Under the pieces are notes generated by a model. It was not told the origin of the DNA. It saw only the letters and a program-made list of their open reading frames with translations, and did no database searches. DNA of 64,000 bases from Acidimicrobiaceae bacterium. Its GTDB lineage: Bacteria; Actinomycetota; Acidimicrobiia; Acidimicrobiales; RAAP-2. Made by a program: the position numbers and the translations under genes. Numbering within the stretch: the first letter of the stretch is position 1; every line of letters begins with the position of its first letter. This document shows, piece by piece, positions 2,984 to 46,546 of the stretch. The stretch spans positions 1-64,000 of the forward strand of contig PMFA01000021.1 in the NCBI GenBank assembly GCA_003155915.1, written 5' to 3'.

Positions 2984-4069
2984 ATGGTTGAACTCACCGC
3001 CAGCGATCTTGAAGGCGTACTCTTGGCGGCGCAGTTGGTGGGCACCGCTCAGGACCCCAGTGAGTTCAGTCAGTTGGCTACCGAGCAGGTAGCGCGGCTC
3101 CTCCCGTCAGAAGTAGTCACCTTCAACGAGATCGATCCGGCGAACGGACAGTTGAACGTTCTCTCGATCCCTTCGTCATATCCTTATCCGCCCGGGGTCG
3201 AACAGGACCTCATCGCTTTGGCGGACCAACATCCGCTGATTCACTACCACGTCCATTCGAGTGACGGCTCCGCGAAGAAGATCAGTGACTTCTGGAGTCA
3301 GGCAGAGTTTCATGCCAGCGCGCTCTACGAATTGGTCTACCAGCCAATGGAGGTGGAGTATCAGATATCAATCACCCTGAGCACGCTTCACTCGAACGTC
3401 GTGGCGATCGTGGCCAACCGGAGCCACGTCGATTTCTCGGAACGGGATCGAACGGTCCTTAACACGCTGCGTCCGCACTTCGTGCAGGCGTGGTATTCCG
3501 CTCGAGATCATCATCGGCTCCGAACGCTCTTGAACAGCACGATCGGCGCCTTGGTTGAATCTGATGTTGGATTGATAGTCCTGTCTGATCCGCCCCAGGA
3601 ACTCACCGCCGGAGCGCTCGCGACGCTCTATCGAAACTTTGGTCCGCCGACCGCGTCGAGTCCATGGCCACTCCAAGTCGAGCAGTGGATGCTCGCCCAG
3701 CGATCTCGCTTCTCCAGCCCGGATGGTGTGAAGTTGCTCACGCCGTTGCGCGTCGAGAAGGGTGGTCGGCGCATGGCGCTTCGTTATCTCGAGGAACTGG
3801 GCGACAGTCCCGGTGCAGTGCTTTTACAAGAGCAAACGTCGCGCCCGACACCGCAAAGCCTGCAGTCACTCGGGTTGAGCGCTCGTGAAGCCGAAGTCAC
3901 GGCGCGCGCGATCAGCGGAGCCACCAACGTCTCGATCGGTGAAACGATGTACATTTCGCCGGCGACCGTCAAGAGGCACCTGGAGAACGTCTACGCCAAG
4001 CTGGGTGTCAAGGGCCGCGGCGAGCTCGCCGCTTTCGTGCACGACGTCCTCGATCGACAACTTCTTTGA
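2984..4069 (+). CDS. LuxR-family transcriptional regulator
   Basis: This is a 361-residue regulator with a C-terminal LuxR/NarL helix-turn-helix (about residues 298-355: LGLSAREAEV, then SPATVKRHLENVYAKLGV). The first 190 residues resemble a GAF-like sensor segment, with FNEIDPANGQ and a middle containing HPLIHYHVH. No ligand can be named. The open frame extends upstream to 2804, but that would overlap the divergent repeat gene, so I chose the ATG at 2984, which starts MVELTASDLEGVLLAAQ. Only about 100 bases separate it from the divergent gene at 2887, so the two may share a control region. The last 24 bases of the gene are repeated at 5161. Confidence 0.8.
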   Translation: MVELTASDLEGVLLAAQLVGTAQDPSEFSQLATEQVARLLPSEVVTFNEIDPANGQLNVLSIPSSYPYPPGVEQDLIALADQHPLIHYHVHSSDGSAKKISDFWSQAEFHASALYELVYQPMEVEYQISITLSTLHSNVVAIVANRSHVDFSERDRTVLNTLRPHFVQAWYSARDHHRLRTLLNSTIGALVESDVGLIVLSDPPQELTAGALATLYRNFGPPTASSPWPLQVEQWMLAQRSRFSSPDGVKLLTPLRVEKGGRRMALRYLEELGDSPGAVLLQEQTSRPTPQSLQSLGLSAREAEVTARAISGATNVSIGETMYISPATVKRHLENVYAKLGVKGRGELAAFVHDVLDRQLL

Positions 4070-4090
4070 GGCGCCGCGCGTCCCCACCGC
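4046..4090 (+). repeat. 3' end of luxR gene, copy 1 of direct repeat
   Basis: Bases 4046-4074 (VLDRQLL-stop plus five bases) match 5161-5189 in 28 of 29 positions, and the following ten-base block TCCCCACCGC at 4081-4090 recurs at 5198-5207. The copies are in direct orientation, about 1.1 kb apart, and flank the secreted-protein gene at 4201. Confidence 0.8.
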
Positions 4091-4200
4091 GCCCCCTCGT
4101 GCCAGAGTTCGCGGAGCGCAAATGGGCCAAACGGCGTATTGCGTGGCGCCGTCTCTGCGGGGAAGATTGGGCTCTTTGAAGACTAGGTAGCGGGTAGAAC

Positions 4201-4869
4201 ATGGCGAAAATCGTTCGGCGCAGTAACGAAGGCGGTCGCATCCAAAGAAGGGTTCGCGTCTTGTTCGGCCTTTCCTTGTCGTGCGGTGTCGCGTTGTCGC
4301 TCGGTGCAGTTGGGTTAATTGGCACAAGTTCGGCGTCGGCCACACCGGCTAAAACCAATCTCATTACGAACGGCAGCTTCGAATCGCCCACGGTGTGCCC
4401 AGCGCCGTTCACGACCTACTTCGCGCCTGCGAAATCGATTCGAGGATGGACCGTCGGCGGAGTGAGCGTCGATCTCATCTGCACAGCCTTTACCCCCGAG
4501 TCTGGTACGCAGTCAGTGGATCTCAACGGCTCACTACCTGATGGTAATCTTGGGAACGCTTCGGGATCGCTCTCGCAGAACGTGCGCACGACGCCGGGTC
4601 ACAAATACCTCCTGACGTGGTTCATGGCGGGGAATCCCTCGCAGGGATGCGGGCCAGTGACGAAAGTGCTCCACGTATTCTGGGGCGGCAAGATCAAGGA
4701 GAGTTTGACCTTCAATGTCTCGAATGACAGTGACACCTCGATGGGCTGGGTCGCAAGGCGGTTGGTGGTCGTGGCGACCGCTAGGACATCAGTGGTCAAG
4801 TTCGCCGACGCGACCGCGACTGGCGACTGTGGAGCAACCCTCGACAACGTTTCCTTGATCGCTAAATAG
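4201..4869 (+). CDS. Secreted DUF642/choice-of-anchor C-like protein
   Basis: This 222-residue protein begins with a basic region and a hydrophobic stretch ending SSASA, a likely signal peptide cleaved near residue 48. The mature part starts NLITNGSFESP and carries SIRGWTVGGVSVDLI, SVDLNGS and LSQNVRTTPGHKYLLTW. This series is typical of DUF642/choice-of-anchor C proteins, which have a galactose-binding-like beta-sandwich and probably bind cell-surface polysaccharide. It ends with a segment like GATLDNVSLI, also typical. Four Cys residues may pair. No strong ribosome-binding site precedes the ATG. The gene lies alone between the two copies of the luxR 3' end, so it may be inserted cargo. It has no enzymatic motif. 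Confidence 0.75.
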   Translation: MAKIVRRSNEGGRIQRRVRVLFGLSLSCGVALSLGAVGLIGTSSASATPAKTNLITNGSFESPTVCPAPFTTYFAPAKSIRGWTVGGVSVDLICTAFTPESGTQSVDLNGSLPDGNLGNASGSLSQNVRTTPGHKYLLTWFMAGNPSQGCGPVTKVLHVFWGGKIKESLTFNVSNDSDTSMGWVARRLVVVATARTSVVKFADATATGDCGATLDNVSLIAK

Positions 4870-5160
4870 GTCTTTTCGAAACTGCCGGGATCACGCGATA
4901 ACGCTGTGGTTCTAGCGACGAGTGGTTCCGCCAGCCGTCTTCGCAATCCCAACGTGGGGTCTGAAGGGCTTGAGCGTCCGAACGGAAGGCAACCGTCAAC
5001 CGTAGGTGAAGAACTGATTCCGAGGTCATTTCGCGGACAAAGTCGCCGAACCAAGTTCCCATGCTCAAGTATGCCGATCATCGGGTCATTTTCTTAAGCG
5101 ACACCGGTGGCGTCCTCACGGGCGCTCGCGTCCGTATCTTCTGGACTCAACTTGGACATC
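4870..5160. other. Non-coding stretch beside the second luxR 3' copy
   Basis: I see no convincing gene here. The short open frames on both strands have no recognisable domain and no good ribosome-binding site. The last bases, read in the frame of the following repeat, give NLDIVLDRQLL, so slight similarity to luxR may extend a few codons upstream of 5161. The rest shows no luxR helix-turn-helix remnant. Confidence 0.5.
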
Positions 5161-5207
5161 GTCCTTGATCGACAACTTCTTTGAGGCGCTGTGGGCGTCC
5201 CCACCGC
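5161..5207 (+). repeat. 3' end of luxR gene, copy 2 (orphan)
   Basis: This is a direct repeat of 4046-4090, including the LDRQLL-stop codons and bases past the stop. No luxR gene precedes it. It marks the right side of the segment carrying the DUF642-type gene. The 183 bases from here to ctaF at 5391 hold nothing I can identify. Confidence 0.8.
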
Positions 5208-5390
5208 CTCGCCCCAGCCAAAAGACAGCGGGCCCCTGGATCTCTCGTCGGCTCACTGTGGTCCGGCCATGTCGCTGAGTGACAGGGCGAGGAGTCTTCT
5301 GACGGAATTGAGAAACAGCCGGCGTGGCGGACTCGATCTAGCGTGACTCATGGTCCCCATTGAGAATCGACTGTAAATCTTGAAAACGTT

Positions 5391-5783
5391 TTAGACGTGG
5401 CCGCCGCGACGACCCTCGGCCGTAGCGCCGAGAAGCGCCCACGCCGCAAGTCCGAGACCGGGAACGAGGAACCAGATTCCGAACACCAGTGCGAGCACGA
5501 CGAAGAACGCGCCCATCCCGAGCGTGAACGGGAAGATCGATGAGCCGGGAAAGGAACCGACGACGCCGGCGCCTTCGCCCTGAGTGGCGTTCGGATCGTC
5601 CTCGGGACGAGCCTTCATTCGACGGCTCCACCAGTAGTAGTAACTACCGGGTACGAGGCAGAGCAACATGCCGGCGAACATCATCACGCCGCCCGCGTTT
5701 TCGTGACCCCAGTTCCAATAGACGACAGCCATGACACCGAAGAAGGCACCGAGGCCCAGAAGGAGCTTGGCTTCTACCCTCAT
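5391..5783 (-). CDS. ctaF: Cytochrome c oxidase subunit IV (actinobacterial type)
   Basis: This 130-residue membrane protein begins MRVEAKLLLGLGAFFGVMAVVYW. It has four hydrophobic segments in two pairs, the layout of the small fourth subunit that accompanies aa3 oxidase in actinobacteria. It starts at an ATG overlapping the ctaD stop by three bases (ATGA), so it is translated from the same mRNA. The longer open frame upstream to 5909 is ctaD read in another frame. The role is structural support of the oxidase in the cytoplasmic membrane. Identification rests on size, topology and position after ctaD. Confidence 0.85.
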   Translation of the reverse strand: MRVEAKLLLGLGAFFGVMAVVYWNWGHENAGGVMMFAGMLLCLVPGSYYYWWSRRMKARPEDDPNATQGEGAGVVGSFPGSSIFPFTLGMGAFFVVLALVFGIWFLVPGLGLAAWALLGATAEGRRGGHV

Positions 5784-42399: not shown

Positions 42400-43614
<1,215 letters not shown>

Positions 43615-43759
43615 TCCAAGCCGCAAGTTAACAGGCTTTTGGGTTTGACTGCCTACGGCACTGACAAGGTTGGTTGCCTGTACCGGGATGCTCCCTCCTC
43701 GTAGTTGGGTCTCTTCAATTTGGAAGCAAACCTTGACCAGGGAAGCTGTGCGACACACA
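43615..43759. other. Spacer between acd and the first orphan 3' copy
   Basis: No gene is supported here. ACAGGC (43631-43636) and GCCTGT (43676-43681) form a weak inverted repeat without a T run. Read in the frame of the following copy, the last bases give TREAVRHTN, which does not continue the dehydrogenase sequence. Confidence 0.5.
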
Positions 43760-43843
43760 AATATTTACACCATTTTTGAAGGAACTTCGGAAATACAGCG
43801 CCTGATCATTGCAAGGGCCATTTCGGGCGTGCACATCAGATAG
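43760..43843 (+). repeat. acd 3' end, orphan copy 1
   Basis: This encodes the same 25 C-terminal residues and stop as the dehydrogenase gene, with 15 synonymous codon differences and no amino-acid change. About 20 bases after the stop (TGAGAAG and neighbours) also resemble those after copy 2. No start, upstream domain or ribosome-binding site accompanies it. Confidence 0.9.
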
Positions 43844-43971
43844 TCCTGAGAAGCGACTCGGGTACTTTCCGTTTGCCGCGGACACGATCAATGACCGCCG
43901 GTTGCGACCGACGCGCAAAACGAATAATGGGCATCCGCGAACAAGTCGGCCGGCCGTAACGGCCTCGTTCT

Positions 43972-44157
43972 TCAGGAGCGTGAATCTTCGAACTTTCGAC
44001 TAATAATCGGACCGACAGAAAATCGACCGGCCACAACGCATGCAATGAAGAGGAGCCCCAGCCACGCGTGTCCGTTGAATGTGTATATGGCGGGCGGTAC
44101 GACGCCGAAAGCGAACAACAAGTTACGGCTTAGTAAAAATCCAAAATATTTGCTCAC
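43972..44157 (-). CDS. Small two-helix membrane protein under MarR-type control
   Basis: This 61-residue protein has two hydrophobic helices (LLFAFGVVPPAIYTF and HAWLGLLFIACVVAG) and a short charged end. I know no family for it. The GTG start has AGGAG six bases upstream. The promoter facing it is TTGACA (44221-44226) and TACGGT (44198-44203) with a 17-base spacer, read on the minus strand. Both palindromes described below overlap or follow this promoter, so the gene is probably the main target of the divergent MarR regulator. A role in efflux or in membrane response would be a guess. Confidence 0.65.
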   Translation of the reverse strand: MSKYFGFLLSRNLLFAFGVVPPAIYTFNGHAWLGLLFIACVVAGRFSVGPIISRKFEDSRS

Positions 44158-44170
44158 GTGCGTCTCCTGA

Positions 44171-44195
44171 TAATCGTTGACTTAGTCAACGATTA
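44171..44195. promoter_or_regulatory. MarR-type operator 1
   Basis: TAATCGTTGAC and GTCAACGATTA form a perfect 11-base inverted repeat around TTA. It lies downstream of the minus-strand promoter, between the divergent small membrane gene and the MarR gene. Its core TTGAC-N3-GTCAA is shared with the second site. Confidence 0.85.
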
Positions 44196-44209
44196 ATACC
44201 GTAATGTGT

Positions 44210-44230
44210 TTAGTTGACTTTGTCAACTAA
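44210..44230. promoter_or_regulatory. MarR-type operator 2
   Basis: TTAGTTGAC and GTCAACTAA form a perfect 9-base inverted repeat around TTT. The centre is 37 bases from that of operator 1. It overlaps the -35 region of both divergent promoters, including the TTGACA facing the small membrane gene. Confidence 0.85.
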
Positions 44231-44245
44231 CTGGTATGGTTTGGC

Positions 44246-44704
44246 GTGCCCCCGAATAAGCGCGACGTGAAGTTGATGGTTGCAGCTCTGTTCACGATGA
44301 ACGCCGGTCTCGAACGAGCGAGACGTCAGCGGAAGGGAGCCGCCACATTAAATCTGTTGCAAACCATCGCTAATCATGACGGAGCGCGGCCCTCCGACAT
44401 TGCCGGTCTTCAGGGAGTTCATCCCTCACTCGTCACCAGACAAATTCGAGAACTTGAAATTGCTGGTTATGTAGAGGTCAAGGCTGACCCAACGGATGGA
44501 CGATCGAATTTGGTCACGTTGACGGACAACGGAACTGTCGAACATCGTCGGTTGGAGAGTTTTGGCCTGAAGCGATTTTCGCTTTTTGTCCGCGATTGGG
44601 AGTCGGAGGATGTTCGGCGCCTGACAGAACTCTTGTGGAAACTTCAACAGTCAATGAGTGCTGTCTCGTCTCGTGAACAGCGGAGCCCCGGCGACGTGCC
44701 CTAG
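44246..44704 (+). CDS. MarR-family transcriptional regulator
   Basis: This 152-residue winged-helix regulator has the recognition segment NHDGARPSDIAGLQGVHPSLVTRQIRELEIAGYVEV and the wing ADPTDGRSNLVTLTDNG, the standard MarR pattern. The N- and C-terminal helices would form the dimer. A TATGGT -10 element ends five bases before the GTG, so the mRNA is probably leaderless. Two palindromes upstream are likely its own operators, giving autorepression and repression of the divergent membrane gene. The inducer is unknown. The gene sits in the segment between two acd 3' copies, with base composition visibly more A/T-rich than its neighbours. Confidence 0.88.
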   Translation: MPPNKRDVKLMVAALFTMNAGLERARRQRKGAATLNLLQTIANHDGARPSDIAGLQGVHPSLVTRQIRELEIAGYVEVKADPTDGRSNLVTLTDNGTVEHRRLESFGLKRFSLFVRDWESEDVRRLTELLWKLQQSMSAVSSREQRSPGDVP

Positions 44705-44823
44705 ACGATCAGGAGTGTCATCACGTCAGTGGGTAAAACTGCCGCCACCCGGTGCTCGACAACATGCTGTCCCTCATTTCCCAAAGATGCCCCGAAAACG
44801 TCGCTTTGTAGAGATGAGCACGG

Positions 44824-44835
44824 TACAATGCATTC
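44824..44835 (+). promoter_or_regulatory. -10 element for a leaderless antitoxin mRNA
   Basis: TACAAT (44824-44829) lies six bases before the ATG at 44836, so transcription is expected to begin at or near the start codon. No clear -35 is visible. Confidence 0.45.
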
Positions 44836-45078
44836 ATGTCAACTCCTGTCAGTCAAGCCCGTGTGTCTCAGCGAGGTCAAACCAGTCTTCCGGCAGAACT
44901 AAGGCATCGTTGGGGTATCGAGGACGGTGGCGAGATCGCCTTCGTTGACCTCGGCGACGCAGCATTAGTTCTGCCCGGAGGAATGGCTCGAGCCAAGGCT
45001 GAACTGAAAAGCGTCCTCACCGCGCGCTACAACGCTGGGTTAGCAGCAATCGGCGATCCCGACCTCGCCGATCAGTAG
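44836..45078 (+). CDS. AbrB/SpoVT-type antitoxin-like DNA-binding protein
   Basis: This protein of 80 residues starts with a swapped-hairpin AbrB/MazE domain: VSQRGQTSLPAELRHRWGIEDGGEIAFVDLGDAALVLPGG. Such domains serve as antitoxins of VapBC-type modules, with a C-terminal tail that binds the toxin. The tail here is Ala/Lys-rich. The stop shares one base with the following GTG (TAGTG), giving translational coupling. The position between two acd 3' copies fits a mobile-element stability module. Confidence 0.75.
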   Translation: MSTPVSQARVSQRGQTSLPAELRHRWGIEDGGEIAFVDLGDAALVLPGGMARAKAELKSVLTARYNAGLAAIGDPDLADQ

Positions 45079-45503
45079 TGAACGTCGTCCTCGACGACCG
45101 CCTCTTGATCGAGGAGCTTCTCGTTGGCAGTCGTAGACCGGGGGTGCAACTGCACACCACTGCCTACTGGTACTACCGCGCATGTCGGGCCGCTGTGCTT
45201 GGCGCCGGCGGGCATCTTTCTGGACCATTCCGCGAATTGGAGCCACAAGATCAGGAGCGCGCGATTAGCGCAATGCTTCAATTACCGAATGACATTGGCC
45301 TTCCTGACACACGACAACTCGTACCGCTCATGGTTGAGATTGCCGGGCGCCACCCTAAGTTGAACCTTCTCAACCTTGAGGCGGTGGCTGCGGCCCGCGC
45401 TCTGGCCGCCACGATCTGGTTGTCGCCAGAGGCAGCGAACGGAGTCTTGCCGCCTGTTCTCGATGGCGAACTTCTAGCGTGGGAAATCGTCACTCCGAAG
45501 TGA
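45078..45503 (+). CDS. Putative PIN-like toxin partner
   Basis: This 141-residue protein begins VVLDDRLLIEELLVG, like the first acidic strand of a PIN-type ribonuclease (D-D in place of the usual single Asp). Later it has NLLNLEAVAAARALAATIWLS, with an Ala-rich helix and an acidic residue at a position typical of PIN folds, and the end PVLDGELLAWEIV. Similar proteins occur downstream of AbrB-type genes in actinobacteria. The full acidic active site is not clearly recognised, so activity is uncertain. It is translationally coupled to the antitoxin-like gene. An interaction partner is the best guess; a toxic effect is inference. Confidence 0.55.
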   Translation: MNVVLDDRLLIEELLVGSRRPGVQLHTTAYWYYRACRAAVLGAGGHLSGPFRELEPQDQERAISAMLQLPNDIGLPDTRQLVPLMVEIAGRHPKLNLLNLEAVAAARALAATIWLSPEAANGVLPPVLDGELLAWEIVTPK

Positions 45504-45626
45504 TGCTGACCGCGACTCGCAATGGCGCTCGCGCGAGAGCCGTTAACGGGGACCGGGATCGGGCCAAATCGGTTCTAAAACTGGTCTTCCCATTCATTTG
45601 TGGGTCCATCTCTCTTCGAAAGGTGT

Positions 45627-45649
45627 CGCGACCAGTACGTATGGTCGCG
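45627..45649. repeat. 23-base near-palindrome before acd copy 2
   Basis: CGCGACCA (45627-45634) and TGGTCGCG (45642-45649) are an 8-base inverted repeat around GTACGTA, itself containing the palindrome TACGTA. It ends six bases before the second orphan acd 3' copy. Its shape resembles the crossover core of a site-specific recombinase. Confidence 0.5.
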
Positions 45650-45654
45650 CCTAT

Positions 45655-45738
45655 AGGAACTACACGATCTTCGAGGGAACCTCGGAGATACAGCGCCTGA
45701 TTATTGCTCGCGCCATCTCGGGCGTGCACATCAGGTAG
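45655..45738 (+). repeat. acd 3' end, orphan copy 2
   Basis: This encodes the 25 C-terminal dehydrogenase residues and stop (from TAC at 45661) with 12 synonymous codon differences to the gene and none changing the protein. Bases after the stop resemble those after copy 1. No coding region precedes it. Confidence 0.9.
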
Positions 45739-45783: not shown

Positions 45784-46296
45784 TCACCAACCGTCAATGT
45801 TGGATTGCAGTTTCGTTGCCATCTGAGTGAGAAAAGAACGCACGGTTGAGGCGGCCACGTGGTGTAACAGGGCGCGGTCAACCTGGGCGCCGAATCGTCC
45901 CAACGCCGGCGTGTAGGTAGCGGCTAAGGAGATGCGACACAGGCCGGGACCAATAGGGGCGAGTTCCAAGTCACCCTCCAGCAGGGGGAAGAGAAACTGC
46001 CAATCGCTGGGTGTCCAAGTGAGAGATCGCGCCAAGGCGTAGCCTCTCTCGCGAGGTGGCCAGAGAGTGACGTTCACCTCACGGGTCACCTTTCCTGCGA
46101 CCCACGAAGGACCAATGCGCATTTGAAAGTTATCTCCGTGCTCGGTGGCGACGGTGGCGAGTGGCGCGAGCCACTGACCATCACCACTGAAGCGCGCGCG
46201 AAGGGTCTCAAACCGACTGGCTACGTCGACAAAGTCCTCGATGAAGCAAGGGGTGCGTTTTTTCGCGTCAGATTCCCCCACGTCACCTTGATCCAC
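45784..46296 (-). CDS. SRPBCC/START-like protein
   Basis: This 170-residue protein has a helix-grip type sequence. It runs FIEDFVDVASRFETLRARFSGDGQWLAP, then HGDNFQMRIGPSWVAGKVTREVNVTLWPPRERG and SLTWTPSDWQFLFPLLEGDLELAPIGPGLCRISLAATYTPALGRFGAQVDRALLHHVAASTVRSFL. This pattern recurs in actinobacterial SRPBCC family members. They bind hydrophobic ligands; no ligand is inferred. The GTG at 46296 has only a weak ribosome-binding site. It lies alone between the second and third acd 3' remnants. Confidence 0.65.
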   Translation of the reverse strand: MDQGDVGESDAKKRTPCFIEDFVDVASRFETLRARFSGDGQWLAPLATVATEHGDNFQMRIGPSWVAGKVTREVNVTLWPPRERGYALARSLTWTPSDWQFLFPLLEGDLELAPIGPGLCRISLAATYTPALGRFGAQVDRALLHHVAASTVRSFLTQMATKLQSNIDGW

Positions 46297-46546
46297 ACGT
46301 AAGTATCTGTCACGGCTAGGGCCACTTCGTAGGGTACAAAGGCTCTTTGTGCAAGAAGGTCACGTGGTCAGGAAAATTGCACGGACGGCTCACCTAACTC
46401 GGCCTCGAAGTTTGTAGCGAAAGGCCTGGCAATGACGTGGCTCGCCAATGCCCGTCGCGCCATCTCGGGTGCACGTTAGATGAACTGACGCGCAGCACCG
46501 AACGAATGACGTCGTCACACGCCATTCGTTCGGTGTTGTCCACGAT
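46297..46546. other. Gap with a short acd 3' remnant
   Basis: At 46453-46479, RRAISGAR-stop resembles the last codons of the dehydrogenase (RAISGVHIR-stop) with internal deletions. The common run TCGCGCCATCTCGGG is 15 bases. The flanking sequence does not match. No gene is supported in the rest of this region. Confidence 0.45.

Follow-up and report, generated by a model that had tools for sequence, protein, structure and literature searches.

The window, that is, the whole 64,000-nucleotide stretch of DNA analysed here, belongs to a 2.5-Mb genome of an Acidimicrobiaceae bacterium. Near its start, a luxR gene (2984-4069) is followed by a gene for a secreted DUF642-type protein (4201-4869) and then by ctaF on the opposite strand. 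The 3' end of luxR recurs between the latter two genes. The features of this region, compared mainly with the congener G067, the closest relative, are:

2984-4069, + strand: LuxR-family regulator of 361 aa with a C-terminal GerE HTH (Pfam GerE, E = 1.5e-13), the only complete copy
4038-4093, + strand: copy 1 of the repeat, luxR 3' end and flank after the stop (repeat comparison, BLAST self-comparison)
4121-4142, + strand: imperfect palindrome AATGGGCCAAACGGCGTATTGC, probable LuxR operator judging from its conservation
4139-4167 (approximate), + strand: possible promoter TTGCGT-17 nt-GAAGAT, abutting the palindrome (read by eye in the alignment)
4201-4869, + strand: secreted DUF642/choice-of-anchor-C-like protein of 222 aa (Pfam, NCBIfam, comparison with G067)
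4870-5152, no strand: spacer, 92.6% identical to G067
5153-5215, + strand: copy 2 of the repeat, stub of a second luxR 3' end, cut before its own operator (comparison with G067)
5216-5274, no strand: segment that in G067 follows operator, signal peptide, gene B and dehydrogenase (ACAD) tail; 84.7% identical to L057 3058-3115
5386-5391, no strand: right edge of an accessory island at the ctaF stop (end of homology to G067 and G034)

Positions 4046-4074 (GTCCTCGATCGACAACTTCTTTGAGGCGC) and 5161-5189 (GTCCTTGATCGACAACTTCTTTGAGGCGC) differ in a single base, exactly as the original prediction had described them, and sequence comparison confirmed that they share one orientation and that the luxR stop codon is part of each. 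The bases shared past the stop, which had also been pointed out, are TCCCCACCGC; they are found 3' of both copies, shifted by a 2-nt indel. In a BLAST self-comparison of the whole window, the repeat was joined to a 48-bp match (4045-4090 and 5160-5207; 89.6% identity, E = 6e-10) consisting of the last ~27 bp of luxR and its flank. The ungapped score is 27, compared to a mean of 8.1 and a maximum of 15 in 500 shuffles, and the repeat is kept at the same place in G067, where the copies are 1136 bp apart. Since the score is far above that of the shuffles and the repeat is conserved in a relative, the two luxR ends are homologous sequence and not a product of chance. No luxR remnant was found in the 283-bp spacer (4870-5152), which showed chance-level matches only, and it matched no fetched locus other than that of G067. 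Rfam searches of the window and of 3950-5400 returned nothing relevant. A hairpin after the luxR stop (-12 to -21 kcal/mol) was considered as a terminator and rejected, its z value being about -1.5 to -2.1 and a T run being absent.

The gene between the copies had been correctly recognised as DUF642-type. Its product matches Pfam DUF642 (PF04862; E = 7.6e-12, 45.7 bits versus a cut-off of 27) over residues 53 to 218, which places it beside the DUF642 and choice-of-anchor C (TIGR04362) secreted proteins. It differs from these in two respects: the TIGR04362 score (116 bits) is just below the NCBIfam cut-off of 120, and the signal peptide region is shared with an unrelated neighbouring gene of G067, the first ~48 codons being common to both. 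By inspection, the N-terminus is signal-peptide-like; no solved structure was found by sequence. Between the repeat copies, this is the sole plausible gene with a Pfam match, and no recombinase is encoded there. The DUF642 gene is present in only 2 of 99 congeners. A single luxR end had been expected in relatives without it, and one tail was indeed found at luxR in all four luxR-bearing congeners that have no intact DUF642 gene (G028, G109 contig C141, G027 and G035). This agreement is confounded, however, because the G109 gene keeps a DUF642-type start (PATANLVTNG after the signal peptide), and the G109 locus may once have held DUF642 and lost it since. The G109 gene in question (L058 2259-5708) encodes a secreted protein of 1149 aa with the signal peptide of the luxR unit, the DUF642-type start and then a gene-B-like part, and looks like a fusion made by deletion. 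At a second G109 luxR, the expected 5' part is replaced by genes for an ATPase and a DDE-type integrase (L085 613-3546, by inspection), which looks like a transposon insertion.

The start of luxR was chosen by alignment with five relatives. Its GerE HTH scores 50.6 bits (Pfam cut-off 23.5), and no relatives of luxR were found among viral contigs. Downstream of the stop lies the palindrome, with the consensus AATACGCCNNNNGGCGTATTGC, i.e. AATACGCC-N4-GGCGTATT, also written AATACGCC-N4-GGCGTATTGC. With up to two mismatches it occurs once in the genome of the window (4121-4142). It is located 3' of luxR in all eight genomes whose luxR (at least 49% identity) is readable at the 3' end. G027 and G015 match the consensus perfectly, and the palindrome is retained in G072 and G015 although luxR is only ~50% identical there. 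At two mismatches, five further genomes also matched, while a reversed control pattern matched two. A palindrome just upstream of the -35 element is the layout typical of LuxR-type regulation. The possible promoter abutting this one was not listed in a sigma-70 scan. Judging from sequence conservation, the palindrome is probably a LuxR operator, and the protein encoded by the complete luxR gene probably acts from there as activator of the neighbouring secreted gene. The HTH family and the placement of an 18-20-bp palindrome immediately before a possible -35 element are shared with known LuxR/GerE regulators; the N-terminal part of ~290 aa, for which no Pfam match was obtained, and a target formed by a changing set of secreted proteins are different. 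Genes following luxR or its operator in relatives encode Ig-like, DUF285 and CarboxypepD_reg proteins, all of the secreted or surface type. The luxR ends would travel with secreted genes because the conserved palindrome, the putative LuxR operator, sits between them.

In contig C22 of G067, a luxR cut by the contig start is followed by a ~79-bp conserved stretch with the operator, the DUF642 orthologue and a second luxR 3' end. After this second end, the 79-bp stretch is present again, followed by gene B, a partial ACAD 3' tail, a small gene and a gene matching window positions 45784-46296. Gene B encodes a secreted protein with the same signal-peptide codons as the DUF642 gene and a different mature part. 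The block repeated in G067 is 328 bp long and comprises the luxR 3' end, the palindrome and the signal-peptide codons; this longer form is known from the one relative, whose own luxR is incomplete as stated. The copy in the window is a shortened form of it: only the beginning of the second block is left, ~28 bp are missing inside the tail compared to the second luxR end of G067, and a stretch of ~1.5 kb is absent before homology with G067 resumes at 5216-5274. The junction between the spacer and the luxR tail is at the same point in both genomes. The first block of the window and the first block of G067 are 94.5% identical, the two blocks of G067 91.5%, and the first block of the window and the second of G067 88.7%, while all three are 82-83% identical to G109. 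The second block of the window is closer to the second of G067 (89%) than to the first of the window (81%), a comparison based on only 62-64 sites. From these identities, the duplication would therefore be older than the split between the window and G067, and it appears to be younger than the split from G109. Because the second tail of G067 starts another unit of luxR end, operator, signal peptide and secreted gene, it reads as a unit header rather than as a target site duplicated on either side of a single accessory gene.

The second luxR end in the window is thus best explained, with good though incomplete confidence, as the truncated head of a second unit composed of a luxR 3' end, a LuxR operator/promoter, signal-peptide codons and a secreted gene. 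The common ancestor of the window and G067 would have carried one complete luxR followed by two such units in a row, one with DUF642 and one with gene B. Either a partial tandem duplication would have produced them, or an allelic unit would have been imported by pairing at luxR, its other end being joined illegitimately. In either case, the second luxR would for the most part have been absent or lost, and its last ~60 bp and the operator kept, as gene B needs the operator. A redundant luxR can be deleted while the operator must stay, so that precisely the luxR 3' end would be left over. In the lineage of the window, a deletion of ~1.5 kb would then have removed everything from the second operator through gene B to the ACAD tail, and a further ~28 bp would have been lost inside the luxR tail, leaving the stub alone. 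The homologies, the longer block in G067, the missing segment and the conserved palindrome are observations, from which we infer how the units originated (duplication or import), in what order the events took place and that LuxR binds the palindrome. Loss in the window is also the more plausible direction, gain in G067 being less likely because the stub of the window already enters the intergenic sequence between luxR and operator.

Regarding the origin of the two units, the original prediction had named two complete luxR genes flanking the position in relatives as the sign of gene decay. No such genes, flanking or in tandem, were found in 99 congeners, which, like the lack of a luxR remnant in the spacer, is a point against a full second luxR at this place. 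Decay of luxR does occur, though: contig C1 of G067 carries a luxR from whose interior a large part is deleted, with the 3' end and operator still intact ahead of a DUF285 (BspA-like) gene. The data fit both origins, this deleted luxR being on the side of decay and the remnant-free spacer and the rarity of DUF642 on the side of import. Homology-facilitated illegitimate recombination is a described process (PMC3240628). Here, one side of an incoming luxR-operator-DUF642 fragment would have paired with the resident luxR, and its other side would have been joined by chance inside the luxR HTH. The tail, operator and gene B of the resident locus would have stayed behind. We regard this as possible but not probable; it does not compete with the truncated second unit, being one of the origins which that explanation allows. 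The junction in luxR, which is abrupt and not preceded by any luxR remnant, and the sporadic occurrence of DUF642 among congeners are as expected from such an event, while no donor was found and the DUF642-type start in G109 suggests that DUF642 is older at the locus.

The recurrence of a gene end around one accessory gene had been equated with the layout at the dehydrogenase locus of the same window, a parallel that did not survive comparison. At the dehydrogenase locus (42400-45738), an intact ACAD gene (42400-43614) is followed by two ACAD tails (43762 and 45661). About 27 ACAD tails across congeners start at the same codon, and most have a recognisable upstream island-side arm containing a GACCAG-like motif, some of these arms carrying an inverted repeat GCGACCAG...CTGGTCGC. 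The underlying scan comprised 29 rows classed as tails, two of which (L062 at 2223 and L070 at 3280) are chance matches; one copy (L029) is cut by a contig end and may be an intact gene. These features are strong evidence for the ACAD 3' end as a recurrent att-like insertion site. The luxR tails, in contrast, start at different points (the equivalent of window position 4015 in G067 C22 and ~3990 in G067 C1), and the sequences upstream of them are unrelated between copies and have no ACAD-type arm. A large serine recombinase (Resolvase, Recombinase and Zn ribbon; L062 16506-17936) adjoins the ACAD stop in a 16-kb island of G029 and is an unproven candidate for the integrase of this site. As a general ACAD integrase it was rejected, since no ACAD end was present within ~1.5 kb (less where the contig stopped earlier) of any of its 19 fetched homologues, and no large serine recombinase of this type was found in the genome of the window at E 1e-40. 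A literature search on serine integrases at acyl-CoA dehydrogenase genes and on Acidimicrobiaceae islands revealed no direct precedent. Among the cargo of the ACAD site in the window are a MarR gene and what may be a toxin-antitoxin-like pair. Inverted repeats (CGTTGACTTAGTCAACG and GTTGACTTTGTCAAC; 44165-44245) directly precede the MarR gene and are probably MarR operators. Elsewhere, an intergenic 47-bp palindrome at 85% identity (46493-46538) is possibly a terminator.

Site-specific integration of a mobile DUF642 unit at the luxR 3' end (attB), with copy 2 as the displaced end (attR), would account for a direct repeat including the stop, an intact gene, an accessory gene between the copies that few congeners possess, and it has a model in the real att-like tails at ACAD elsewhere in the genus. 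As with integrative elements that use a gene 3' end as attB, accessory DNA lies here between a gene end and a second copy of that end lacking the rest of the gene. The locus differs from them in that luxR has no fixed boundary, arm or recombinase, whereas the ACAD 3' end in the window has such features except for a proven integrase. Variable tail starts without a common arm, homology in G067 that extends for 328 bp through operator and signal peptide, and the lack of a recombinase between the copies make integration at luxR very unlikely. Moreover, since luxR directly follows an ACAD tail in both G028 and G109, the luxR units look like cargo of the ACAD hotspot and not like a target. What stands of the earlier reading is the homology of the copies and the single tails in four congeners; the insertion-type layout around one accessory gene does not.

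In G067 and in G034, another close relative, homology to the window ends at the ctaF stop (5386-5388), where the signal peptidase gene lepB is found instead. In the genome of the window, contig C4 ends with lepB and, after it, a gene for a secreted fibronectin-type-III protein that runs off the contig. The simplest reading is that an incompletely assembled accessory island of secreted-protein genes, holding the luxR/DUF642 repeat, sits between lepB and ctaF. Upstream of luxR, positions 1091-2887 encode a secreted-looking protein with internal repeats visible in the DNA (1502-2718) and no Pfam match. All genomes used are draft assemblies, and the named loci with luxR relatives are from environmental MAGs, mostly Acidimicrobiaceae with bog or palsa isolate names. 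Because the block of the window is close to a contig end and not at the ACAD site, its place in G067, a rearrangement or an assembly error at this position is possible. An assembly or binning artefact, in which the luxR/DUF642 piece was wrongly joined to ctaF, would agree with the window beginning at a contig end, with lepB adjoining ctaF in G067 and G034, and with the placement of the block in the ACAD hotspot of G067. We consider it quite unlikely: the double luxR tail is independently present in G067, other congeners vary at lepB-ctaF too, and the arrangement at the end of C4 is that predicted for an island interrupting lepB-ctaF.

The stray luxR end is most likely the result of ordinary genome reshuffling in a mosaic island of secreted-protein genes, which involves no special insertion mechanism. 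Repeated headers, sporadic genes, internal deletions and variable neighbours are also seen where tandem duplication and decay shape flexible genomic islands; different here is that the retained header has a putative operator and a signal peptide, so that separate mature parts share a regulatory front end. The luxR end as an insertion target is thereby removed as a false lead, and the luxR locus is distinguished from that of the dehydrogenase, at which recurrent site-specific insertion is strongly supported. For uncultivated Acidimicrobiaceae, a specific and testable pair of regulator and operator is predicted for secreted proteins. The repeated header might even be the front end of an active cassette, with headers recombining so that different secreted mature proteins are swapped or stacked behind one LuxR-controlled promoter. 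This is improbable on present evidence; if true, it would provide lineage-level variation of the set of cell-surface or secreted proteins.
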